Source: Bacteroidales bacterium (GTDB lineage: Bacteria; Bacteroidota; Bacteroidia; Bacteroidales; F082). From it: a DNA stretch of 64,000 bases. A program made the position numbers and the translations under genes. This document shows, piece after piece, positions 24,174-64,000 of this stretch. A model generated the notes under the pieces. It did not search any database and had not been told where the DNA came from. It saw only the letters and a list, made by a program, of their open reading frames with translations. Numbering within the stretch: position 1 is the stretch's first letter; every line of letters begins with the position of its first letter. The DNA lies in contig JAFXLL010000010.1 in the NCBI GenBank assembly GCA_017531225.1, positions 248,001 through 312,000 of the forward strand. The letters are read 5' to 3'.

Positions 24174-27050
24174 ATGAATTGGAACGAACTTCCCGCCGAT
24201 GAGTTGCTGGAAAGGATCAAATCCAAATCCGACAGCGACCGAGAAGACATTCTTAACGACTACATTGTCGAAAACCACGATAAGCTGCAGCCTTTGAAAC
24301 TGTTGCCGTTATTGGATGCGATCGACCAAATCAAGAAATCAAATCTTGAGAAAGGAAATCTAACCGAAGAAGGCACCGAGAATTGCCTCAACGACCGAGT
24401 ATTCCTTTCATTATGGATGGCGAAAATCTATTTGAACGAATTGTTCGATGTGAATCGCTCCCGCGAATTGGTCGACGAAGCAAAGGACCTGATCCAACGC
24501 TACGAAGGCAAATACGTCAAGGAAATGCGCGACACTAATGAACAAACACTTATGGAACTCAGCGAAAAACTCAAACAGATCAGCAAAGAGGTGGCCAGCG
24601 ATAAAGAAGGCCAGATGCCGAAACCTTTTGAAGACTATCTGAACCTGCTCGAAAAGAAGCGGGTCTTCAAGGAGCAAGTCAACGAAAACATCGGGCATAC
24701 CCGCCGCTATGGCTATCTGTTCACCGGCAACAGCGGCACCGGAAAGCGCTCAGCCGCCAAACAGTTGTTCAACGTCTTGAAAGCCATCGAGAGCGAAACC
24801 CAGATTTGGGTTGAGATACCGGCCATACAGATGTTCGACCCCAGTTCGGGATTCTCCCCCATCGGCAACACCATCGAGGAGAACCGACACAGTCTTATCT
24901 ACATCAGCGGCGCTGAAGACCTGGGCATGAAAGGCTTGCTGTCGCAGACAGGCATCGAGATTTTAGCCAACAAGCTAAAGACCGAACCCACCGTCACCGT
25001 AGTCCTTTCGGGTCCTCGCGACGAGATGATCCAGCTGATCAACTCCTGCCAAGCAGCCAAAGAGATCTTCATCAACAAGTTCCATTTCGAGGACTTCGAT
25101 CCCAAGACCTTGACTGACATCGCGGTCAACTATGCGCAAGAGCACGGCTATCGTTTCAGTGAAGATGCCCAGCATGAGTTGTTCAACTATTTCAGCTATG
25201 AGCACAAGATGCGCGGAAACGACTTTGGAAACATCCATCTGGCTCACCGCACCATCGACGACAAGGTGCTTCCTTCGCTTATCCAGCGCGTGGTAAACGG
25301 CCAAGCCGTTCAGGAAGACAAGGAAGCGGCCATTACCATCACCAGCGACGACATCCCAAAGATACGCCACCGCGACCCAAAGAAAGCCATCGAACGACTC
25401 GAATCACTCGTGGGTCTGGAGAATATCAAGCAAAGCATCATGGCACACGCCAGCTTGGTGAACCTGAATAGGCGACGCATGGAGTTAGGCTTGTTTAACC
25501 ACATGCCACCGATGCACATGGTCTTCACAGGCAACCCCGGCACCGGCAAGACTACCGTGGCTGAACTCATCGGCGAGATCTACTACGGCATGGGAGTGCT
25601 GTCGTCAGGCCACCTGGTAGAGGTAGACCGTTCCAAGCTGGTAGGCCAGTTCCTCGGCGACACCGAGAAGAACACCCTCAACGCCATCAAGAGCGCTGCA
25701 GGAGGCGTGCTCTTCATCGACGAGGCCTACAACCTGTTCACCAACGACCCTGACCGCCGAGACTTCGGGCACCGCGTCATCGAAACCCTGCTCACCTACC
25801 TGAGCATGGAGCAAACCAACATGATCGTCGTCCTGGCCGGCTACACCGTCGAGATGGAGCACCTGCTGCAATCGAATCCCGGACTGAAATCACGTTTCTC
25901 CTACCTGTTCCACTTCAACGACTATACGCCTGAACAGCTGATGAAAATCGGCGGCTTCGTCATGAAGAAGGAGCAATACAAGATCACGCCCGAAGCCGAG
26001 AAGAAGCTGACACAATATGTCATCAACGCCTATAACAACAAGGACGAGCATTTCGGCAACGGACGTTTCATCACCCGACTGCTGACCACCAAGATCATAC
26101 CTTCGGTCAGCGACCGTCTCTACAAGATGCCTGCTGAAAGCGTCACGGCACAAGACTTAGTCACCATTACCGAGGCCGACATCCCGGAAGTGGAAGATCG
26201 CATGAAGATGCGAACTTGGGACAGCGCCATCATCGACGATGCCCTGGAACAGCTGGACGAACTCGCCGGACTGGAAAACGTGAAGAAAGCGCTGCGCGAC
26301 TACGTGGTGATGCTGCACGCCAGCTTCGTCAACAAGACCCCGATGGCAGGCAACTACATGACATGGAACTTCTTAGGCAATACAGGTTCGGGTAAGAGCA
26401 CCGTGGCTGAGATCCTTTGCCGTATCATGCAAGGCGCCAGCCTGCTGCCTACCAACCATTTCTGCACGTTGAATATCGAAGAGTTTGCCAACGCCAACAA
26501 CCCGATGGCCATCGTGGAGAAAGCCCTGCTGAAAGCCACCGACGGAATGCTTTTCCTTGACCTCGACTCACCCAACTACAGCAACTATAACACGGATTTC
26601 CTGCAGTTCTGGATCGACAACAAACGCAAGGAGCTAAACATGAACATCGCCGTCGTCATTGCCCGCACCAACGACAACCGCGATGCCGTAGTGCGCAACC
26701 TGATGCAACATGGCGTGGTGCCTTCAAACCACATCCTTGTGTTCGAAGACTTCCAGCCTGCCGAGCTGAAGGAGATTTTCAGCTATCTGCTGAAGAAGCA
26801 ATTCAACCTGGACATCGAACCCGAAGCCAAGGATGTCATCGACAGATGCATCGACCAGATCTACAAAAACCGTCAGAACTATCCGGTCAACGCCCGCACC
26901 ATCCAGCTACTGGCCAGCACTGTGGCTCAGATTGCCCAACTACGCATCTTCAACAGCAACGACACATCGAGCAACCTCGTCGTCAAAGCCGATACCGACC
27001 AACTGGAATGGAGCGAGAGTTCCATGCTTTACCGCCGCATAGGATATTAA
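24174..27050 (+). CDS. Large AAA+ protein with three CbxX/SpoVK-type modules
   Basis: A 958-residue cytoplasmic protein. After a helical N-terminus (1-165) come three AAA+ modules. Module 1 has a P-loop with GNSGTGKRS near 185 but no good Walker B (LIYISGAEDL), so it is probably inactive. Module 2 has GNPGTGKTT near 453 and GGVLFIDEAYNLF near 510, and is fully conserved. Module 3 has GNTGSGKST near 735 and a weakened Walker B, DGMLFLDLDSPNY. CbxX/CfxQ proteins remodel protein complexes (CbbX activates Rubisco); here no such target exists. It resembles the AAA+ protein at 61255-63732 in module order and spacing but lacks the zinc ribbon. A MATE gene starts 3 bp later. Confidence 0.85.
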   Translation: MNWNELPADELLERIKSKSDSDREDILNDYIVENHDKLQPLKLLPLLDAIDQIKKSNLEKGNLTEEGTENCLNDRVFLSLWMAKIYLNELFDVNRSRELVDEAKDLIQRYEGKYVKEMRDTNEQTLMELSEKLKQISKEVASDKEGQMPKPFEDYLNLLEKKRVFKEQVNENIGHTRRYGYLFTGNSGTGKRSAAKQLFNVLKAIESETQIWVEIPAIQMFDPSSGFSPIGNTIEENRHSLIYISGAEDLGMKGLLSQTGIEILANKLKTEPTVTVVLSGPRDEMIQLINSCQAAKEIFINKFHFEDFDPKTLTDIAVNYAQEHGYRFSEDAQHELFNYFSYEHKMRGNDFGNIHLAHRTIDDKVLPSLIQRVVNGQAVQEDKEAAITITSDDIPKIRHRDPKKAIERLESLVGLENIKQSIMAHASLVNLNRRRMELGLFNHMPPMHMVFTGNPGTGKTTVAELIGEIYYGMGVLSSGHLVEVDRSKLVGQFLGDTEKNTLNAIKSAAGGVLFIDEAYNLFTNDPDRRDFGHRVIETLLTYLSMEQTNMIVVLAGYTVEMEHLLQSNPGLKSRFSYLFHFNDYTPEQLMKIGGFVMKKEQYKITPEAEKKLTQYVINAYNNKDEHFGNGRFITRLLTTKIIPSVSDRLYKMPAESVTAQDLVTITEADIPEVEDRMKMRTWDSAIIDDALEQLDELAGLENVKKALRDYVVMLHASFVNKTPMAGNYMTWNFLGNTGSGKSTVAEILCRIMQGASLLPTNHFCTLNIEEFANANNPMAIVEKALLKATDGMLFLDLDSPNYSNYNTDFLQFWIDNKRKELNMNIAVVIARTNDNRDAVVRNLMQHGVVPSNHILVFEDFQPAELKEIFSYLLKKQFNLDIEPEAKDVIDRCIDQIYKNRQNYPVNARTIQLLASTVAQIAQLRIFNSNDTSSNLVVKADTDQLEWSESSMLYRRIGY

Positions 27051-54454: not shown

Positions 54455-54476
54455 CTAATTCCTTCTCGCACAGATA

Positions 54477-54507
54477 AAAAACCGCTGGAAACCAGCGGTT
54501 TTTTTTG
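54477..54507 (+). terminator. Intrinsic terminator after the RND operon
   Basis: ACCGCTGG (54481-54488) pairs with CCAGCGGT (54492-54499) across AAA, with A5 before and T7 after. Confidence 0.9.
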
Positions 54508-54533
54508 TTTTTTCAAAAAAATGTTTATTTTTG
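54504..54533 (+). promoter_or_regulatory. Promoter of the TerB-kinase-AAA cluster
   Basis: TTTG at 54504-54507 (inside the preceding T-run), 18 bp spacing, TATTTTTG at 54526-54533. The first start codon is 38 bp further on. No other promoter was seen between the six genes. Confidence 0.6.
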
Positions 54534-54571: not shown

Positions 54572-56722
54572 ATGAATAAACCTGAACTAGCTCATCTGAT
54601 CAACATGATCAACATCGCAATGATTGACGGAGAAATCAGCGATGAAGAAACAACTATCCTCTGCAGCATCGCCGAAAGCCTTGGCGCCACAAAAGAAGAA
54701 TTTGATTTTTGTATCAAAACCGCCAAGGAACAAAAAGACACTGTAATTATCGAGGTGCCTGAAACCGACGAAGAGAAGACCTTCTACCTGAAGAACCTCA
54801 CCCTTATGATGATGTCTGACGGAAACATCGACGAGAACGAGAAACAATACATCAAGTTCATCGCCGATAAGTTCGGCTATGATGGCGACAAAGCGCTTGA
54901 AATCCTCATTGACAGCGTCGCTAACGACATCCGTGAGCGTCTCGATAAAAGCCAAAGTAAAGGCTCCTCTGATACTCACGAAAGCAACGGTCCCTCCAAC
55001 ACCCGCGAAACTGGAAAGAAAGATGACGATATCGACATGGAACAGCTTCAAGATGAAATCAGGGAAGCCGTTAAGCTCGGCAAGAAAGCCCTCATGAAAC
55101 ATGATATTCCTACGGCTTTTGACAACCTCGTCTATGCCGCTCACATGGACAGAGACGCCTGCCAACTTTTCCTGATGATCATCAACCAACGCACCCGTCT
55201 CTTCGCGATCAGTAAAGAGCAGGTGGCCCTATTGAAGGATTTCGCCGAGAAAGGCTATGCCCTGTCACAATATGCCTATGGCCGCTGGCTGGAAGCCCAT
55301 CGCCCTGAAGCAGACTCACTCAACATCGCCAACGAATACCTCAAAAAAGCGGATAAAGGTGGTGTACACGACGCACTTTTTGCACAGTCGGTACTCTACA
55401 AGGCAGGTCATTATGGACTGGTGGATCGCGAAGAAGCCGCTCGAATGGTCAACGATGCCGTGGACAAAGGCAGTTTCCTTGCTTATCAGTATGTCTTACG
55501 CCAAACCATCTACGGCTGGAACAACGTGACTGCCGATCCCAAACGGGTTGCCGACGGCATAAAGGATTGGTTCAAAGACGGCGAAAGCGACGACATCCTA
55601 ACGGTCAATCCCGCCTATTACAGCATCATCGCTGAGGCGTACGCAGAACTCAAAGACAAGAAAAACGCCGACAAATACTACCGCAAGGCCATTGGCATGG
55701 GTTACTACGAGGCTTGGAGCGACCTGTGCAACCTGCACTTTGAAGACGATGAGTATGACGAACTGCTTGAGCAGGGTTGCGAAGCCGGTGTGGCCAACTG
55801 TCTTTTATTGAAGGCCAGCGGCCTCATGGATCGCTATGAAGACATGAACAGCCGTGACCAAAAACAGGCCACCGCAGACATCATGCACTACACCATCAGC
55901 GCTTGCGAAGAAGGCAGCGACTTAGCCCCCTACTTCATGGGCAATGCCTATTACCATGGGTATTACGGTTTTGAAAAAGACTTCGAAAAAGCATGGTTCT
56001 GGTTCTGCGAAGGCACCAAACGTGACGATGGCGAATCCTACGAAATGCTGGCCGTCATGGTTTCAGGAGATGAGAATCCTTATGAAATCTCAGACAAGGA
56101 AGGATTTGTGAATCACTGCGCCATGATGGCACTACGCAACGGCAACGACAACCTTCTCGACTTGGTGGTGGAAAGCTACCGTAACGGCGAACTCACCGAC
56201 TATGCCGCTGAGATTGAGAAATATTACATCCCGGAATACGAAAAAAGTCATGAAAACGACGACGAGGAAGATGAAGATGATGACGAGGAAGAATACGAAT
56301 CTGATTTGCTGCTTATCGCCATCGTGAAGACCGATGGCAAAGCCGACATCATCGAATTCGACGTGGAGAATGGCTGGGACGAGCTGCCTGATTTCGTCGG
56401 TGCCAACCGCCTCGACGCCATCCGCGTGCAACCGCTCTACGACATCAGCAACCAGTTGGGCTACGACGACCACATCACCGGTTGGGTGGACAACATGGGC
56501 CTGATGAAAGACCTGCCGATGAACCCCATCGGATGCAAGATCTACCCCGGCCCCATCGCAGGCGACATGATCCTGACACTCGAAGACAAGAAATACAATC
56601 CCAAGAGCTTTAACGACCTTGACGAGTTGAAACAAGTAATCGCTGCTCTGGGTGCCAAACTCGATAACATCTGCCTTGACGACGAGCCCGATGACGACGG
56701 CCGCTACGACGCTTGGTCATAA
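54572..56722 (+). CDS. TerB-like / Sel1-repeat protein with acidic linker and DUF3846-like end
   Basis: A 716-residue cytoplasmic protein. Residues 1-125 form a TerB-like helical domain in two halves with metal-type acidic motifs AMIDGEISDEE and MMSDGNIDENEKQYI. From about 165 to 540 there are Sel1/TPR-type helical repeats (YALSQYAYGRWLEAHRP, LAPYFMGNAYYHGYYGFEKD). An Asp/Glu-only stretch follows near 563-577, and the end (585-715) resembles DUF3846, with ENGWDELPDFVGANRLDAIR and GCKIYPGPIAGDMIL. TerB domains occur in tellurite/stress systems, and Sel1 repeats serve as docking scaffolds, so this may be the hub of the complex encoded by the cluster (inference). First of six genes. Confidence 0.75.
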   Translation: MNKPELAHLINMINIAMIDGEISDEETTILCSIAESLGATKEEFDFCIKTAKEQKDTVIIEVPETDEEKTFYLKNLTLMMMSDGNIDENEKQYIKFIADKFGYDGDKALEILIDSVANDIRERLDKSQSKGSSDTHESNGPSNTRETGKKDDDIDMEQLQDEIREAVKLGKKALMKHDIPTAFDNLVYAAHMDRDACQLFLMIINQRTRLFAISKEQVALLKDFAEKGYALSQYAYGRWLEAHRPEADSLNIANEYLKKADKGGVHDALFAQSVLYKAGHYGLVDREEAARMVNDAVDKGSFLAYQYVLRQTIYGWNNVTADPKRVADGIKDWFKDGESDDILTVNPAYYSIIAEAYAELKDKKNADKYYRKAIGMGYYEAWSDLCNLHFEDDEYDELLEQGCEAGVANCLLLKASGLMDRYEDMNSRDQKQATADIMHYTISACEEGSDLAPYFMGNAYYHGYYGFEKDFEKAWFWFCEGTKRDDGESYEMLAVMVSGDENPYEISDKEGFVNHCAMMALRNGNDNLLDLVVESYRNGELTDYAAEIEKYYIPEYEKSHENDDEEDEDDDEEEYESDLLLIAIVKTDGKADIIEFDVENGWDELPDFVGANRLDAIRVQPLYDISNQLGYDDHITGWVDNMGLMKDLPMNPIGCKIYPGPIAGDMILTLEDKKYNPKSFNDLDELKQVIAALGAKLDNICLDDEPDDDGRYDAWS

Positions 56723-56740
56723 CCTTAAAAACCTCACGCC

Positions 56741-58027
56741 ATGAAAGCATCAGACTATAGATCACGACTTCAGAAAGACATCAAGCAGAACGACCATCTG
56801 CCGGAGATTCCCATGTATAACCAACTTACCAAACAGCTTTGGGATGCCTTGCAAGGCGACATCGTTTGGCAAGTGATGCAAAAACTCGGCATCGACAAGA
56901 TGGACGACAGGGCCGAGCGCGTGCGGATGGAAGGACGCAGCCTGAAAGTCACTCAAAAGGTAATGCCCCGCTTGTACAATCTGTTTAACGACGTCAAGGA
57001 TCGCGTCAACCTGGAACATCCAGTCGACTTCTTCGTCATCAGCGACGCCACCCTCAACGCATGCGCCCATGTAATGAAACCCATGGATCCTGAGATGCCT
57101 TATATCGTGGAGGTGAACTCCGCCATGATCGAGACCATGACTGAACCCGAGCTCTGCTCCGTGGTCGGACATGAACTGGGCCATCTCCTTGACGACAACT
57201 ATATCCTAAACCAAGTCATCTACTTCATCTTCGGTGCCGATGAATACGGTCGTCCCAACCTGCCCATTCCGTTGCGTTTCAAGTACTACTACTGGAAACA
57301 GCTGAGCGAGCTCTTCGCCGATCGTTATGGTTACCTGGCCACCGACGACATCAACGCCTGCATCTCAGCTGAGCTGAAACTTAAGTCAGGACTGAAGCTC
57401 GACAAGATCGAAGCCAACATCCCCGCCTTCATCGAGGAAAACCGCGAAGCGTTGCAGCACTACATCTCAGGCTGCGGCCTCAGCCTCAACGACGGCTATA
57501 CCCATCCTGTGAGCCCCATCCGCATCGAAGCACTCAACCTCTTCGCCAATGCCAAGACCGAGAAGGAACTCAGCGAGGGCATGCAAGTGCTTACCAACGC
57601 CATCGCACGACTCAACACCAACCCGATTGAGGACGAGATGATCATCTTCATGGCCACCGGAGGTCTGATCATGGCTAACGCCGATGGACAGATTACCCAA
57701 CAGGAACACGAGCTCATCATCGACCAGATGTCGAGCTACTACATGTTCCCATTGAACATCCTGCAAGGCATCACCACCGAGAATTGCTCCGACCTCTTCA
57801 ACCAAAGCGTCCATAACATCTTGGAAGCCGACCCGAACAACGCCAGAACCCTGTTCCTCTACCTGATCAATGTGCTGGTGAGCGACCATAAACTTGACCA
57901 AAAGGAACTCGAGCTATTGTTCAAGATCGGTGAAGAGGCCTTGCATCTCGACGGGCGACAGATGGTTGAGCTCTTGGCCAACGGCTTGCGCCGAAGCTTC
58001 ATCCCATCCATTCTCTCCATTAGCTAA
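56741..58027 (+). CDS. M48-like metallopeptidase with C-terminal TerB-like domain
   Basis: A 428-residue protein without signal peptide or membrane helix. The zinc site is VVGHELGHLLDDN near residues 143-155 with the third ligand likely in SELFADRYGYLA near 190; this is M48-type (HExxH plus downstream Glu). The C-terminal part from about 285 has MATGGLIMANADGQITQQEH and VLVSDHKLDQKELELL, the same paired acidic motifs as the TerB-like domain of the gene before. Lack of membrane helices sets it apart from HtpX. It is 18 bp after the TerB/Sel1 gene. A regulated cytoplasmic protease acting in the cluster is the simplest guess. Confidence 0.8.
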   Translation: MKASDYRSRLQKDIKQNDHLPEIPMYNQLTKQLWDALQGDIVWQVMQKLGIDKMDDRAERVRMEGRSLKVTQKVMPRLYNLFNDVKDRVNLEHPVDFFVISDATLNACAHVMKPMDPEMPYIVEVNSAMIETMTEPELCSVVGHELGHLLDDNYILNQVIYFIFGADEYGRPNLPIPLRFKYYYWKQLSELFADRYGYLATDDINACISAELKLKSGLKLDKIEANIPAFIEENREALQHYISGCGLSLNDGYTHPVSPIRIEALNLFANAKTEKELSEGMQVLTNAIARLNTNPIEDEMIIFMATGGLIMANADGQITQQEHELIIDQMSSYYMFPLNILQGITTENCSDLFNQSVHNILEADPNNARTLFLYLINVLVSDHKLDQKELELLFKIGEEALHLDGRQMVELLANGLRRSFIPSILSIS

Positions 58028-58046
58028 CCAATAGAACGTCCTTCAC

Positions 58047-58790
58047 ATGACACAGAGCAATCCTGCCATAGAGTCGCAGCATGCCAAAGGCAAAGAAGCC
58101 ACCAAGAAACAGGTCAGGCCCAGCCACAAGAGCACAAGCTCAAGAAAATGCAAGCATTGCGGCGCCGAGATCGAGCTGAACGTGGAATTCTGTCCGTTCT
58201 GCGGAAAGAAGTTAGTGGATTACTGCACTTTCTGCGGCGCGCCTATGGATGCCTCGGATACTGTCTGCGAGGAATGTGGCATGCCAGCTGAAGGCACGGT
58301 ATGCCCAAAGTGCGGCACCTTCAACGTGCGGTCCTTCTGCCGCAAATGCAACGAACCACTGACCCGTGCTGCCGCCCGTGCCATCGAGAAAGCCAAGGAA
58401 GACCCCAAGGTACAGCAGGCCGCCAAGCTAATGGACCGTGCCGCCGAGTTGGAAGAGCAGCTGGAAAACGCCGCCGAGGGAACGCAACAGGCTGAAGTCC
58501 AGCAAGAGTACCAAAACGTGGTGAAGGACATCAACAAATTATTTGAAGAGATGCTGCCTCCAGCTGGATCCACGCCACAAGAGCAATACAACTATTACTC
58601 CGCCCGAAAGGTGGCCATCGAGACCATCAGAAAGGTAACGAAGACCACCCGGACAGGATGGGTGTGCAACTATTGCGGATGCTTCCACAGCAAGCCCAGC
58701 GATTGTGCTGAGCCTTGGCATGGCGGCACCTGGATTTACGAGACCGAGGAAGAGGTGATCGTCACCAAAGAATACCAATATGAGAAATAA
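58047..58790 (+). CDS. Zinc-ribbon protein with coiled coil
   Basis: A 247-residue protein with multiple zinc-ribbon knuckles in the first 110 residues: CKHCGAEI, FCPFCGKKL, YCTFCGAP, VCEECGMP, VCPKCGTF, FCRKCNEPL (double zinc-ribbon style). A charged helical part (about 112-175) that looks like a coiled coil follows. A last knuckle is GWVCNYCGCFHSKPSDCAEP, then a short tail ending EEVIVTKEYQYEK. Such proteins act as adaptors. It lies 19 bp after the peptidase gene and 3 bp before the kinase gene. Confidence 0.8.
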   Translation: MTQSNPAIESQHAKGKEATKKQVRPSHKSTSSRKCKHCGAEIELNVEFCPFCGKKLVDYCTFCGAPMDASDTVCEECGMPAEGTVCPKCGTFNVRSFCRKCNEPLTRAAARAIEKAKEDPKVQQAAKLMDRAAELEEQLENAAEGTQQAEVQQEYQNVVKDINKLFEEMLPPAGSTPQEQYNYYSARKVAIETIRKVTKTTRTGWVCNYCGCFHSKPSDCAEPWHGGTWIYETEEEVIVTKEYQYEK

Positions 58791-58793
58791 GCC

Positions 58794-61310
58794 ATGGACG
58801 ACTTGTCAGATCTGCTAAAAAACGTCAAGAAGCCCCAAGGAACTGCAACGGCGCCCCAAGGAACGGCCACTGCCCCGCAAGGGACCGCCACCGCTCCACA
58901 GGGGACAGCGACGCCACCCCAAGGCACCGCCACACCCCCGTCTGACGGCAACGTAGCCCATAGCGGATCACAAGCCGACATCATCTTACGTGACGGCAAG
59001 CTGCTGAAGGTCTATAAGCCAGGCTCCAGCTTTAACGCCAACGTGCTGAAGCTGGTGAAAAGGATGCGAGGCATAGGCCAGGTGGTAGATCTCTACGACT
59101 ACGGCACCATGGACTATGAAGGCGAGCAACGTCAGTTCGAGCTGATGGAACATTGCCCCGAAGGTGCCGTGAGCGGCGTCGACTTGAAAGGCAACAAAGA
59201 CGCCATCCTGGCCATCGTTCGCAAGGTGGCCGAGGCCTTGGATGCCTGCCATCGCATGGGCTTCATCCACAAAGACGTGAAACCCGCCAACATCCTCATT
59301 CGCGATAAATCCACCTGGGGCTGCGTGCTTTGCGACTTTGGCATCGCCGACGTGCTCGACCACGGCAAGGTAACCACACAACAAAGCCGAACCCCCATCT
59401 ATGCGGCGCCCGAAGTCTATGAGCACACGGTGACTATCGAAAATAGCACCTACTGCGAGCTTACCCCTGCTGCCGATTTCTACTCCTTAGGTATGACCAT
59501 CCTTTGTCTTTGGTATGGCGAATCAGCCTTCCGAAACAAAGAGACCACCATGGCCATGCAAAAGGTTCACAACGGCATCGTCGTCCCCTCCGACATGCCC
59601 GATCCCCTCTACACCATCACCCGAGGGTTGCTGGTCAAGGATCCCGCACACCGCTGGGGGCTGAAGGAAATCAACGAATTCCTCGATGGCAAGACTGTGG
59701 AGGTTTATAACGAGGCAAGCCACGGCGGCTTAAACATCATCTTCAACAGCAGTAAACATCAAATCGCCCACAGCCCAGAGGAACTGGCCGCTTTTATGGT
59801 CGAAGACATGGATCTGGCCATCAAATACCTCTATAGCGGCAAGATCTCAAAATGGCTTGAACACATTCCAGAACTCCAGATCGAGATCGAAAACATCATC
59901 GAAAAAGACTTCCCCAACGACCAAAAGATGGGATTGTTGGCCGCCATCCATACCCTCAACCCCTTTTACGACCTTCAGCTCTGCTGCGACATTCACAACC
60001 CCGACTACGCCATGACCGGCGCCACCATTGGAAAGGTACTGAACCAAGCCTACGACCGTTACTTCACCCAAAACAATGCCGACCTTCTGGCCACTTGCCT
60101 CGCTGAAAGCTTCCTCGATAGCAATAATAACAACTACCTCCCATGGTTCCTCATCCATAAAGGCGACCGTTTCACACAACAGCGCAATTGGTTCAACTAC
60201 TGCGTCTATGGCGACGACCAAAACAAGAAAAAAGCAGGGCCGAAAGACAGCGACTACCTACATCAGGTGGCTATGATGAAGACCCTCTCCGGTTTTGGAG
60301 CACAGCCTGAATACCACCTGTCGAGAACCGGAGCAGTCCTCAAGAGCATCGATGACATCTATAAAGCGCCAAAGAAAGAGCTGCTGTACGACCTTCAAAA
60401 CGACAAAGGCATCCGAGGATGGTTGGCTGTGTTATGCCACGAGAACCCTCATGCCGACCTGAAGAAGAAATACACCTACGAAAAACTCTTGGAGCAATAC
60501 GTTCAGCTGCTCGGGTACATTGACCATGACGACCATAACTACTCGCGTTTTCGCCAAGCCCAAGACAACGTCAAAGATATTGTCAGCGAAGCCAAAAACA
60601 AGATCAGAGGAACTTGGTCGGCAAGCCTGATCCAACGTCTTATGGCTATCTTCTTAGGGTTCGTACCCTTAGCCCTCCTCCTTACAGATATCATCCTCAA
60701 TATCATCGATAACCCAACCATCAAAATCGGCGGATGGACCAGCTATATTTTCTACGGACTTGGAATCGTCGCCGCCGTGATCTCCTATTTCACCCTCGAC
60801 AACGACGGGTGCTTGGTCCCAATCATTATCGGAGCCATCGTTTCTTTCTTGATAACGTTAGCCATTTCCGTTATAGGATATGTGATCTTGTATCTCTATG
60901 GATTGATCGTTCTCGCCGTGCTTGTTTTCTTCAGCATCACCACTCTCTTCGAGACCAGCGACAAGCGAAAACGAATCAAAAGCATCACCAATCCTGGGTT
61001 CGAGGAATTGACCCTGGAGCCGTTGTATTTCGCCTTCAACAACGAGAGGACCTTCGATTCCTCCATCAACGGCGCCATAGGCATCAAAGGCTCTACCTCT
61101 TGGAAAGAAGACGTGAAGAAACGCTGGAAGATGGTGTGGCTTTTCATCGGGAGCACCTTTGTGCTGATGATGTTTAGGTATGCGTTGCCGAAGTCAGAAC
61201 GTATGGACCGTTTCGACAAGTATTTGAAAAATCCTTTTAAAACCGAAATCCAATATGATGAAGTGCAAGAATTGTCAGACACAGAATCGGGATCAGGCGA
61301 AGTTCTGTAA
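58794..61310 (+). CDS. Membrane-anchored Ser/Thr protein kinase with heptapeptide-repeat linker
   Basis: An 838-residue kinase. After a short start MDDLSDLLKNVKK come five heptads PQGTATA/P (residues 14-48). The kinase domain (about 60-305) has the ATP-binding Lys in KLLKVYKPG, the catalytic loop FIHKDVKPANILI (Lys in place of the Arg of HRD), CDFGIADVL and YAAPEVYE; a standard glycine loop is not clear. A helical part (about 330-600) follows, then membrane segments near 618-640, 650-670 and 676-715, and one near 780-797, with a cytoplasmic tail rich in Ser, Asp and Glu. The likely targets are neighbours in the cluster. The 3' end overlaps the AAA+ gene by 56 bp. Confidence 0.85.
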   Translation: MDDLSDLLKNVKKPQGTATAPQGTATAPQGTATAPQGTATPPQGTATPPSDGNVAHSGSQADIILRDGKLLKVYKPGSSFNANVLKLVKRMRGIGQVVDLYDYGTMDYEGEQRQFELMEHCPEGAVSGVDLKGNKDAILAIVRKVAEALDACHRMGFIHKDVKPANILIRDKSTWGCVLCDFGIADVLDHGKVTTQQSRTPIYAAPEVYEHTVTIENSTYCELTPAADFYSLGMTILCLWYGESAFRNKETTMAMQKVHNGIVVPSDMPDPLYTITRGLLVKDPAHRWGLKEINEFLDGKTVEVYNEASHGGLNIIFNSSKHQIAHSPEELAAFMVEDMDLAIKYLYSGKISKWLEHIPELQIEIENIIEKDFPNDQKMGLLAAIHTLNPFYDLQLCCDIHNPDYAMTGATIGKVLNQAYDRYFTQNNADLLATCLAESFLDSNNNNYLPWFLIHKGDRFTQQRNWFNYCVYGDDQNKKKAGPKDSDYLHQVAMMKTLSGFGAQPEYHLSRTGAVLKSIDDIYKAPKKELLYDLQNDKGIRGWLAVLCHENPHADLKKKYTYEKLLEQYVQLLGYIDHDDHNYSRFRQAQDNVKDIVSEAKNKIRGTWSASLIQRLMAIFLGFVPLALLLTDIILNIIDNPTIKIGGWTSYIFYGLGIVAAVISYFTLDNDGCLVPIIIGAIVSFLITLAISVIGYVILYLYGLIVLAVLVFFSITTLFETSDKRKRIKSITNPGFEELTLEPLYFAFNNERTFDSSINGAIGIKGSTSWKEDVKKRWKMVWLFIGSTFVLMMFRYALPKSERMDRFDKYLKNPFKTEIQYDEVQELSDTESGSGEVL
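58833..58940 (+). repeat. Five diverged 21-bp units encoding PQGTAT(A/P) heptads
   Basis: Five in-frame 21-bp units from 58833 to 58937 plus a trailing CCG encode PQGTATA three times and PQGTATP twice. The DNA differs at many third positions while the peptide is nearly invariant, which suggests selection on the peptide rather than recent duplication. Confidence 0.9.
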
Positions 61311-63732
61311 ACACTGCGGAAAGCCTCTGCCCATCCCATACGGGAAGGAGTTTGAGGGCCTCTTCGGCAAAGACCACCTGCAGGAACCGCTCAACGAGTT
61401 CAAGAAGCGGGTCGACGTCGATTTGCAGATGAAGGAACGAGGCAACCGCGTCCACATCCAGATGGATTGCGTGATCTTGGGAAACGCCGGCACCGGTAAG
61501 CATTTCATGGCCGAACTCCTCTCCGACTATCTGATGAAGAAAGGCGTGGTGTATCAAAGTGACATCAAGACGATTGATGCCATCGACATTCCTGCATGGC
61601 TCGACAATATTGAAACGAATCTGAACGACATCAAAAACGGGTTGTTGGTGATTCACAACGCCCAAAAACTCATCTATAACGGCGAGTCGCCCGAGCTTGA
61701 CACCCTATTCACCCGCATGCACGACCATCCCGCCAACATGCCCGTGGTCATCCTGACCGGCTTGCGGCGCGACTTTGAGGACTTTTTGGCCGCTAAACCC
61801 GAAGTGGCCTCGCTATTCGAATTTCGCTTCGACCTCAAGCCACTCAACGAGCTGTCGCTCTGTGACATCTGCACCCATATCCTGAAAAAGAGATACAAGT
61901 TCGACATCACCGACGAGGCCTTGACGAAGCTCCGTGGCCATTTTGAATGGATCATGCGCAAAGGCGGCGGAATCGACAACAACGGTCTGTTGGCTGAATC
62001 GAAAGCTGAAGAGCTAGCCGTGAACGCCCTGTTGCGAGGCGGCACTACAATAGAGGAGCAAGACATCCGAGGCGAGGTGTTTGTGCCTCGTACCGAAGAA
62101 GAGATTTGGGCTGAGCTCGACGAATTCATTGGGCTTCAGAGCGTCAAGGACGAGATTCACAAGATCATCGATAATGTCAAGGAAGCCCAACGTGAAGGCG
62201 GTCCCAACGCCAAAGCCCAGCTCAAGGACCATTACATCTTTACCGGCAACCCTGGCACCGGCAAGACCACCATCGCACGTATCTTTGCCGACATCCTCGG
62301 CGCCACGGGCGTGCTACCCAAAGGCCAATATGTGGAGGTGGCTGCTAAGGACATGATCTCGGAATACATCGGCGGCACCGAGCGCAACGTTCAGGACTAT
62401 GTGGATCGTGCCATGGGCGGCGTGCTCTTCATTGACGAAGCATACGGCTTCAACGACGGCAACTTCGGTAAGGCCGGCATTGACAAGTTGGTGCCCATCC
62501 TAGAGAACAAGAAAGGCGAATTCGTATGCATCGCCGCAGGCTATCGCGACGACATGAAGGAGTTCCTCAAGATGAATACAGGTCTCCCCTCACGGTTCAA
62601 CAAACAGATTGAATTCCCCGACTACAACGCCAAAGAGCTCGAGCTCATCTTCCTCAGCATGGCCACGAAGAAAGGCTTCCGCCTTGACCAAGAAGCCACT
62701 GACAAGCTTCATATCGAGTTCGAGAACATGTATAACCGTCGTGGCGACACCTTCGGCAACGCCCGCGACGTACGCAACCTCCTTGACGCCGCCATCGAAC
62801 GCCGCAGGATACGCCATCGCGAAATGAGCGAGAGCGAGATCACTCGTGAGGGCAAGCTCCTCACCTACTCTGACATCGCCGGTGAAGGCGTGAACAAGGT
62901 CGTCGACATCCAAGAGGTGATGAAAGAACTTGACGAACTCGTGGGATTGGAGAGTGTGAAACGCAGTCTCCGTGACTTAGCAGCCACCATACGCCGTGAA
63001 CAGCAACTCGCCCAACGCCGCAACCGCACCCCCAACATCAACGTCAGCCATTATCTCTTCCTCGGCAACCCCGGCACTGGTAAGACCACCGTGGCACGCC
63101 TCATGGGTAAGATACTGCACGCCTTAGGCGTCATCAGCAGCTCCGATGTGTATGAGGTGACCCGCGAGGACCTAGTAAGCCGCTATCTGGGCGAGACCGC
63201 ACCCAAGACCCGCGAGACGGTGATGAAAGCCATGGGCGCCGTGCTCTTCATCGACGAGGCCTATTCGTTGAGCAACGGCGGTCCCCACGACTACGGCATC
63301 GAAGCCATCAACACCCTCACGCCCATGTTGGAGAACTACAAGGGCAAGTTCGTTTGCATTGCCGCTGGTTATACACAGGACATGATCCGTTTCCTCAATC
63401 AGAATAAGGGATTGAAGTCACGTTTCGACGAGACCATCGAATTTGAAGACTATAACGTCGACGAGCTCTTCCAGATTTTCGTCAACATGGCCAAGAAAAA
63501 AGAGTTCCTTCTCGACGACCAGGCCCTGGCCGCTGCACGGTCGCTCTTCGAGCGAGCCTACGCCGTACGCGACGAGAACTTCGGCAACGCTCGAACCGTG
63601 CGCAAGACCCTCGACCGAGCCATCAAGAACCTCTCAACTCGGACTGCCTACGACGACACCTTGAGCGAAGAAGAACTGATGACCATCAAAGCCGAGGATA
63701 TCAATCAAATTGAATTGGAGGATATACTATGA
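61255..63732 (+). CDS. Zinc-ribbon CbxX/SpoVK-type AAA+ protein with three modules
   Basis: An 825-residue protein starting with a zinc ribbon (Cys 4, 7, 18 and 21 in MMKCKNCQTQ and FCKHCGKPL). AAA+ module 1 has GNAGTGKH near 76 and a degenerate Walker B LLVIHNAQKL, so it is probably inactive. Modules 2 and 3 are intact: GNPGTGKTTIARI near 330 with GGVLFIDEAYGF, and GNPGTGKTTVARL near 602 with GAVLFIDEAYSL. CbxX-type ATPases form hexamers that remodel client proteins. The start lies inside the kinase gene, but the zinc ribbon at the very N-terminus supports it. The next gene overlaps its stop by 4 bp. Same architecture as the protein at 24174-27050. Confidence 0.88.
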   Translation: MMKCKNCQTQNRDQAKFCKHCGKPLPIPYGKEFEGLFGKDHLQEPLNEFKKRVDVDLQMKERGNRVHIQMDCVILGNAGTGKHFMAELLSDYLMKKGVVYQSDIKTIDAIDIPAWLDNIETNLNDIKNGLLVIHNAQKLIYNGESPELDTLFTRMHDHPANMPVVILTGLRRDFEDFLAAKPEVASLFEFRFDLKPLNELSLCDICTHILKKRYKFDITDEALTKLRGHFEWIMRKGGGIDNNGLLAESKAEELAVNALLRGGTTIEEQDIRGEVFVPRTEEEIWAELDEFIGLQSVKDEIHKIIDNVKEAQREGGPNAKAQLKDHYIFTGNPGTGKTTIARIFADILGATGVLPKGQYVEVAAKDMISEYIGGTERNVQDYVDRAMGGVLFIDEAYGFNDGNFGKAGIDKLVPILENKKGEFVCIAAGYRDDMKEFLKMNTGLPSRFNKQIEFPDYNAKELELIFLSMATKKGFRLDQEATDKLHIEFENMYNRRGDTFGNARDVRNLLDAAIERRRIRHREMSESEITREGKLLTYSDIAGEGVNKVVDIQEVMKELDELVGLESVKRSLRDLAATIRREQQLAQRRNRTPNINVSHYLFLGNPGTGKTTVARLMGKILHALGVISSSDVYEVTREDLVSRYLGETAPKTRETVMKAMGAVLFIDEAYSLSNGGPHDYGIEAINTLTPMLENYKGKFVCIAAGYTQDMIRFLNQNKGLKSRFDETIEFEDYNVDELFQIFVNMAKKKEFLLDDQALAAARSLFERAYAVRDENFGNARTVRKTLDRAIKNLSTRTAYDDTLSEEELMTIKAEDINQIELEDIL

Positions 63733-64000
63733 AATGCCCATACTGCAAAGAGATCATTGATGACGACAGCCACTACTGTGACCAGTGCGGCAAGGAGTTG
63801 CGTTTTTGCCCTGAGTGCCACCAACCCAAACGCGGGACGGAGTGCCCAGCCTGCGGTACCGATTTGGTGAGTGCTAAGGAATACTTTAAGCCTAAAGAGT
63901 CTCCGAAGCCCCAAAAGCCAGAAGAGACATCGGCACCTTCCCCATCGGCTCCCGCCCTTCTCGAAGGCGACGGCTTCGGGCTCACCCTTAAAGAAGGCGT
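63729..64000 (+). CDS. Zinc-ribbon protein, N-terminal part, possibly FHA-containing (cut by the right edge)
   Basis: At least 90 residues, open to the window edge. Two or more zinc knuckles: MKCPYCKEII, YCDQCGKEL, RFCPECHQPK and ECPACGTDL, followed by a Pro/Lys/Glu-rich linker (about 50-75) and then LLEGDGFGLTLKEGV. That last stretch looks like the opening strand of an FHA domain, which would bind phosphothreonine made by the kinase two genes upstream, but too little is visible to be sure. ATG overlaps the stop of the AAA+ gene (ATGA), so translation is coupled. Confidence 0.75.
   Translation, partial: MKCPYCKEIIDDDSHYCDQCGKELRFCPECHQPKRGTECPACGTDLVSAKEYFKPKESPKPQKPEETSAPSPSAPALLEGDGFGLTLKEG

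Follow-up and report, generated by a model that had tools for sequence, protein, structure and literature searches.

A conserved and apparently undescribed five-gene kinase, FHA, PP2C and AAA+ system of Bacteroidota

Results

A five-gene core conserved across Bacteroidota families

A zinc-ribbon scaffold, a membrane Ser/Thr kinase, a multi-module CbxX-type AAA+ protein with a zinc ribbon, a zinc-ribbon–FHA protein and a PP2C phosphatase make up a real and conserved five-gene system of Bacteroidota that is apparently undescribed. We observed this directly in gene content, gene order, co-occurrence, co-divergence and the integrity of the domains. The copy described here lies at the end of the window, by which we mean the whole 64,000-nucleotide stretch that was analysed; the window comes from contig C7 of a gut Bacteroidales assembly of 2.58 Mb. 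Genes 1–6 are on one strand, with gaps of 18, 19 and 3 bp followed by overlaps of 56 and 4 bp, exactly as the original prediction from this DNA had described. The unit extends beyond the window to seven genes in all, genes 6 and 7 running past position 64000, and these proved to be the FHA and PP2C genes that had been proposed to lie there. The features are as follows; positions past the window are given on L004, where L004 position + 54000 = window position.

54476..54504 (L004:476-504), + strand: terminator-like hairpin of the upstream gene, consensus match only
54504..54533, + strand: Bacteroidota-type promoter match, TTTG-N-TAnnTTTG
54572..56722, + strand: gene 1, TerB-Sel1 protein, 716 aa; accessory, genus-specific
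56741..58027, + strand: gene 2, M48 peptidase with HExxH and a C-terminal TerB, 428 aa; accessory
58047..58790, + strand: gene 3, zinc-ribbon scaffold, 247 aa, Pfam DZR/zinc ribbon; core
58794..61310, + strand: gene 4, Ser/Thr kinase, 838 aa, Pfam Pkinase, hydrophobic segments near the C-terminus; core
58833..58937, + strand: five PQGTAT[AP] units at the kinase N-terminus
61255..63732, + strand: gene 5, zinc ribbon, degenerate AAA and two intact CbxX-type AAA modules, 825 aa; core
63729..64000 in the window (whole gene L004:9729-10223), + strand: gene 6, adaptor with double zinc ribbon and FHA, 164 aa, FHA at 45.6 bits in Pfam; core
L004:10220-10960, wholly outside the window: gene 7, PP2C phosphatase, 246 aa, PP2C_2 at 47.1 bits in Pfam; core

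We identified the core in 24 genomes, which belong to seven Bacteroidota families (family codes of the search tool). Of these, 21 have the complete set of five genes, and contig ends truncate the loci of the other three (G014, G749 and G048). The order scaffold, kinase, AAA+, FHA, PP2C is constant in the 20 single-contig loci; in G126 the five genes are spread over two contigs, with scaffold and kinase separate from the contig of the AAA+ gene. The scaffold adjoins the kinase in every one of the 24 carriers. The run is interrupted by a SUKH-like gene in two genomes, G130 and G126, and by an extra AAA piece in G057, and the FHA gene of G013 was located by tblastn.

We then have the frequency of the core in overlapping samples of the phylum, the order and the genus, where in the large samples each genome was scored for its top 5 to 7 candidates, and where both profiles, of scaffold and FHA protein, derive from loci reached via gene 5 and its relatives. 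Among 395 phylum genomes, gene 5 as the query gave 17 matches in 16 genomes at E <= 1e-100, 7 of them within core loci; the scaffold profile was strong in 7 genomes and weaker only in 12 more, mostly as short zinc-ribbon matches, and the FHA profile singled out the same 7 genomes. Among 295 order genomes, the scaffold profile was strong in 4, counting the window's own and a cut copy, while its matches in 16 more were weaker and partial. It was also strong in 13 of the 100 genus genomes and, within the order of G176, in 7 of 164, five of which were already known.

Furthermore, the pairwise distances of the five core proteins correlate across 19 genomes (r 0.87–0.97, with none of 2000 permutations as high), a correlation that is partly due to shared host ancestry. 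In the AAA+ and PP2C trees alike, the genus forms a single group (support 100 and 99). The scattering of homologues, which the original prediction had named as counting against it, is not seen for the five core genes. Its expectation that the genes stay together across Bacteroidota is thus borne out for these five in 24 genomes, while TerB-Sel1 and M48-TerB belong at the genus level.

Could the whole run be transcribed as one unit? TTTG-N-TAnnTTTG, which we take to be the Bacteroidota -33/-7 promoter consensus, has five matches in the window against 1.07 expected, and one of them precedes gene 1. The promoter predicted at this place thus has a Bacteroidota-type consensus match, and no sigma-70-type site was found at the position. 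Another terminator-like hairpin lies past the window, beyond gene 7 (L004:11051-11071), though such hairpins are not enriched in the region (11 found, 12.8 expected from shuffles). Because a promoter-like match precedes gene 1 and terminator-like hairpins lie on both sides, about 10.5 kb may be a single transcript. Gene 7 is followed on its 3' side by ~620 bp without an evident system gene and then by large proteins that are unrelated to the system by BLAST.

Kinase tail and FHA adaptor

The kinase was predicted to be membrane-tethered, and both parts of this description agree with its Pkinase match in Pfam and its C-terminal hydrophobic segments. H[RK]DxKPxN is present in 23 of the 24 carrier kinases (HLDVKPAN in G036) and DFG in all 24; in the G126 kinase, APE was not found within 120 residues. 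A hydropathy scan placed the hydrophobic segments at the C-terminus; of the 21 untruncated kinases scanned, 20 have four to six and that of G048 has two.

The opposite end carries a repeated threonine motif, which we recognised by eye in 22 of the 24 kinases and which varies by lineage. It is PQGTATA-like or ERTAV-like in the window's genus, DKTLK in G057, SGTQRP in G664 and [DE]KT[VI]R-like in families f42 and f60; the tails of G454 and G048 are irregular. Codon comparison in nine genomes found synonymous divergence inside the tail arrays, whose units were chosen by pattern, which lowers the residue differences; the G000 units are contiguous. Between the G000 units, 48 of 70 codon pairs are synonymously different and 6 are residue-changing, and this repeat is therefore old and conserved at the protein level.

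On the reader side, the FHA residues G, R, S, H, N and G are invariant among nine aligned proteins. The FHA protein of each of the seven carriers from f42 and f60 has [DE][KRA]T[VI]R and one further residue as its C-terminal end, matching the tail of its own kinase. None of the 14 remaining FHA proteins ends in this way, and those of the window's genus have no kinase-tail motif at their end. These features suggest that the tail threonines are phosphorylated and that the phosphorylated tail is read by the FHA domain.

Zinc ribbons and chained AAA+ modules

Three zinc-ribbon proteins had been predicted; Pfam finds zinc ribbons in genes 3 and 5, and gene 6 is the double-zinc-ribbon–FHA protein. 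The scaffold also has a C-terminal motif, WxCN..H..P..C..P..GGxW, outside any Pfam match.

Gene 5 combines AAA, AAA_lid_6 and a zinc ribbon in Pfam. The claim of a three-module AAA+ protein was right as to the CbxX-type modules, but the first of the three is degenerate: its Walker B glutamate is replaced by N in 21 of 22 proteins (G048 retains the glutamate), and the Walker A Ser/Thr is also absent in 11 aligned genus proteins. Two to five modules with intact Walker motifs follow in each chain, and the longest chain, in G126, has six modules including the degenerate one.

Three PDB entries matched gene 5, the closest solved structures being CbbX (the best match) and EccA1. Its modules resemble CbbX/SpoVK-type AAA+ proteins in sequence and have the AAA plus AAA_lid_6 arrangement of that type. 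The SpoVK model scored 511 against a cut-off of 422.95, spread over three stretches, and passing this cut-off is non-diagnostic because the whole-protein score sums the modules. Unlike CbbX/SpoVK, the gene 5 family has a zinc ribbon, a degenerate first module and 2–5 intact modules per chain. A second multi-module AAA protein in the window (24174-27050, 958 aa) is a relative of gene 5; the ORF list around it contains no adjoining kinase, FHA or PP2C.

TerB-Sel1 and M48-TerB as additions within one genus

Gene 1 consists of a TerB domain (residues 1–130; Pfam 27.5 bits, cut-off 24.4), a Sel1/TPR-like middle and a C-terminal domain (residues ~576–716), all three of which recur in relatives in segment searches. 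The Sel1 scaffold proposed for it is weak in Pfam, where Sel1 is absent and TPR_8 reaches 19.1 bits, under its cut-off, and is recovered by the segment searches as a Sel1-like middle; the DUF3846 label is weak (E 0.066). The C-terminal domain also occurs as solo ORFs of ~155 aa, among them L177:7469-7942 and L181:2695-3159 (154–157 aa, ~62% identity to that of gene 1) in core-negative genomes.

Gene 2, which has a relative of 96% identity in an uncultured Bacteroidales MAG, fits the predicted cytoplasmic HExxH peptidase, with Peptidase_M48 at 32.8 against a cut-off of 20.3 and no hydrophobic segment in a hydropathy scan. The TerB-like domains claimed for two proteins are clear in gene 1; that of gene 2 is below the Pfam cut-off (20.4 against 24.4) but matches the TerB of two relatives' TerB-Sel1 proteins at about 3e-6.

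TerB-Sel1 adjoins the core in 11 of the 13 genus loci; the G010 copy is on another contig, and the G014 contig ends first. Matches to it occur in 13 of 13 core-positive versus 23 of 87 core-negative genus genomes (Fisher p 3e-7, ignoring relatedness). In the fetched stretches of 11 non-genus carriers, some of them short upstream, BLAST at 1e-4 or 1e-2 found neither TerB-Sel1 nor M48-TerB. Both are therefore genus-level additions outside the core that also occur alone elsewhere, and consequently TerB domains do not define the system.

A family of ~200–300 aa without a Pfam match recurs next to the core in three families, at five loci (L145:7787-8410, L147:7270-7866, L149:11336-11941, L116:17587-18396 and L117:16971-17873). 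Fusions of TerB with a ribosomal L7/L12 C-terminal domain lie upstream of the core at L145:1998-4418 and L147:1086-3878, the TerB of the second being under the cut-off, and a DUF3990 gene stands between TerB-Sel1 and M48-TerB in G748 (L151:12683-13210).

Proposed mechanism and alternatives

What might the five proteins do together? Our best reading, to which we give almost an even chance on the sequence evidence, is an AAA+ remodelling machine that is anchored in the membrane and controlled by the phosphorylation of threonines. C-terminal segments would hold the kinase in the membrane; it would phosphorylate the threonine units in the tail at its own N-terminus, and the adaptor's FHA domain, whose key residues are intact, would bind the resulting phosphothreonines. 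The zinc ribbons common to scaffold, adaptor and AAA+ protein may hold the complex together. The degenerate first AAA module would serve as a docking or regulatory part, the AAA+ protein with its 2–5 intact modules would remodel a client at the membrane, and PP2C would reset the switch. Within the genus, TerB-Sel1 and M48-TerB might, more speculatively, join the machine as a protease arm or as client adaptors particular to this lineage. In the kinase–FHA–remodelling scheme originally put forward, tail phosphorylation, FHA reading and client remodelling are all inferred, the first two with support in the sequences. The irregular tails of G454 and G048, the glutamate in module 1 of G048 and the genus FHA proteins without the tail motif speak against the reading.

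A bolder proposal, possible but doubtful, is a new class of machine: a phosphothreonine-scaffolded complex built on the multivalent kinase tail, where FHA–zinc-ribbon adaptors would assemble and an AAA+ motor, a covalent chain that varies in length, would remodel clients of the membrane or envelope, which exchangeable accessory proteins would supply. Adaptors that bear the tail motif themselves could then chain head-to-tail.

If the remodelling-machine reading is true, a complete writer–reader–eraser phosphothreonine circuit would be wired to a chained AAA+ motor with no known secretion apparatus; to our knowledge, such circuits are little studied in these bacteria. The lineage-specific tail motifs make the kinase–FHA pairing directly testable, and the AAA+ chains, with one degenerate and 2–5 intact modules, offer a natural series for the study of covalent AAA+ assembly.

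Could the system instead act in anti-phage or inter-bacterial conflict? Its patchy distribution (7 of 395 phylum and 13 of 100 genus genomes) would suit such a role, as would the variable number of TerB-Sel1 genes (three in tandem in G749), the domain-level resemblance of the kinase and AAA proteins to parts of defence systems, and the SUKH-like genes that three genomes have within the core or next to it (that of G126 under the Pfam cut-off) and the DUF1963 genes on the 3' side of PP2C in four loci, SUKH and DUF1963 being immunity families. However, the best NCBIfam defence models fall far below their cut-offs (the MADS kinase MAD6, NF047741, 73.7 against 460 bits; IteA/IetA of Iet, NF042959, 58.3 against 510 bits). 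PADLOC, run on 10 flanking proteins, matched three, all ATPases, of which two are generic and one, in G031, matches the candidate PDC-S27 over its full length; neither these models nor that run gave a sign of phage defence. Several flanking genes are housekeeping, and both trees hold the genus together. We regard a conflict role as unlikely.

It appears quite unlikely that the system serves proteostasis or the response to envelope stress, with the AAA+ protein unfolding clients and the M48-TerB protease degrading them. M48 with HExxH does adjoin the core in 7 of the 13 genus loci, and the kinase is of a membrane type. On the other hand, M48-TerB cannot be the universal output, because it is missing beside the core in the other 6 loci, was unseen in the stretches from the 11 non-genus carriers and has relatives (33–38% identity) that occur without the core.

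Comparison with known systems

Ter systems and the TerY-P triad combine TerB domains, a kinase and PP2C with the vWA protein TerY, and TerD is their defining member. The present system shares the TerB domains, kinase and PP2C, but TerB lies outside its core; among 11 carriers TerD occurs in one, G000, where it lies on a different contig, and a simple motif scan of the loci for vWA gave no match.

PppA is the PP2C phosphatase of the T6SS pathway. The PpkA–PppA–Fha set resembles the present one in having a membrane Ser/Thr kinase, a PP2C phosphatase and an FHA reader, but the present system adds a CbxX-type AAA+ protein and zinc ribbons. Similarly, several of the T7SS variants T7SSc–j are alike in kinase, phosphatase and FHA, and EccA1 of ESX is among the gene 5 PDB matches; unlike T7SS, the AAA+ protein here is multi-module with a zinc ribbon, and it scored 426 against the cut-off of 466.65 bits for the NCBIfam EccA model TIGR03922. 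The excerpt of PMC3953482 describes kinase-dependent threonine phosphorylation read by Fha in T6SS, and that of PMC11217815 a kinase, a PPM phosphatase and an FHA protein near the locus of several T7SS variants. Links of kinase, PP2C and FHA are described for other systems in the excerpts of PMC7159879, PMC11217815 and PMC3953482, which do not describe the present cluster.

Although such sets accompany T6SS and several T7SS variants (excerpts of PMC3953482 and PMC11217815) and EccA1 is itself CbxX-type, a phosphorylation module controlling a T6SS- or T7SS-like secretion or injection system, with the AAA+ protein as cytosolic ATPase, is already weakened and very unlikely, with sheath VipB (PF05943; E. 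coli control positive) and WXG100 (PF06013; B. subtilis and T. maritima controls positive) each in 0 of 11 carriers and no secretion genes recognised among the annotated sample of flanking proteins.

No named system matched the cluster, and no description of it was found in the one open-access literature library searched, in keeping with the original suggestion of a possibly undescribed system. A kinase-like reading frame (L005:13296-14000), open at the end of its stretch, lies ~22 kb downstream of the operon.
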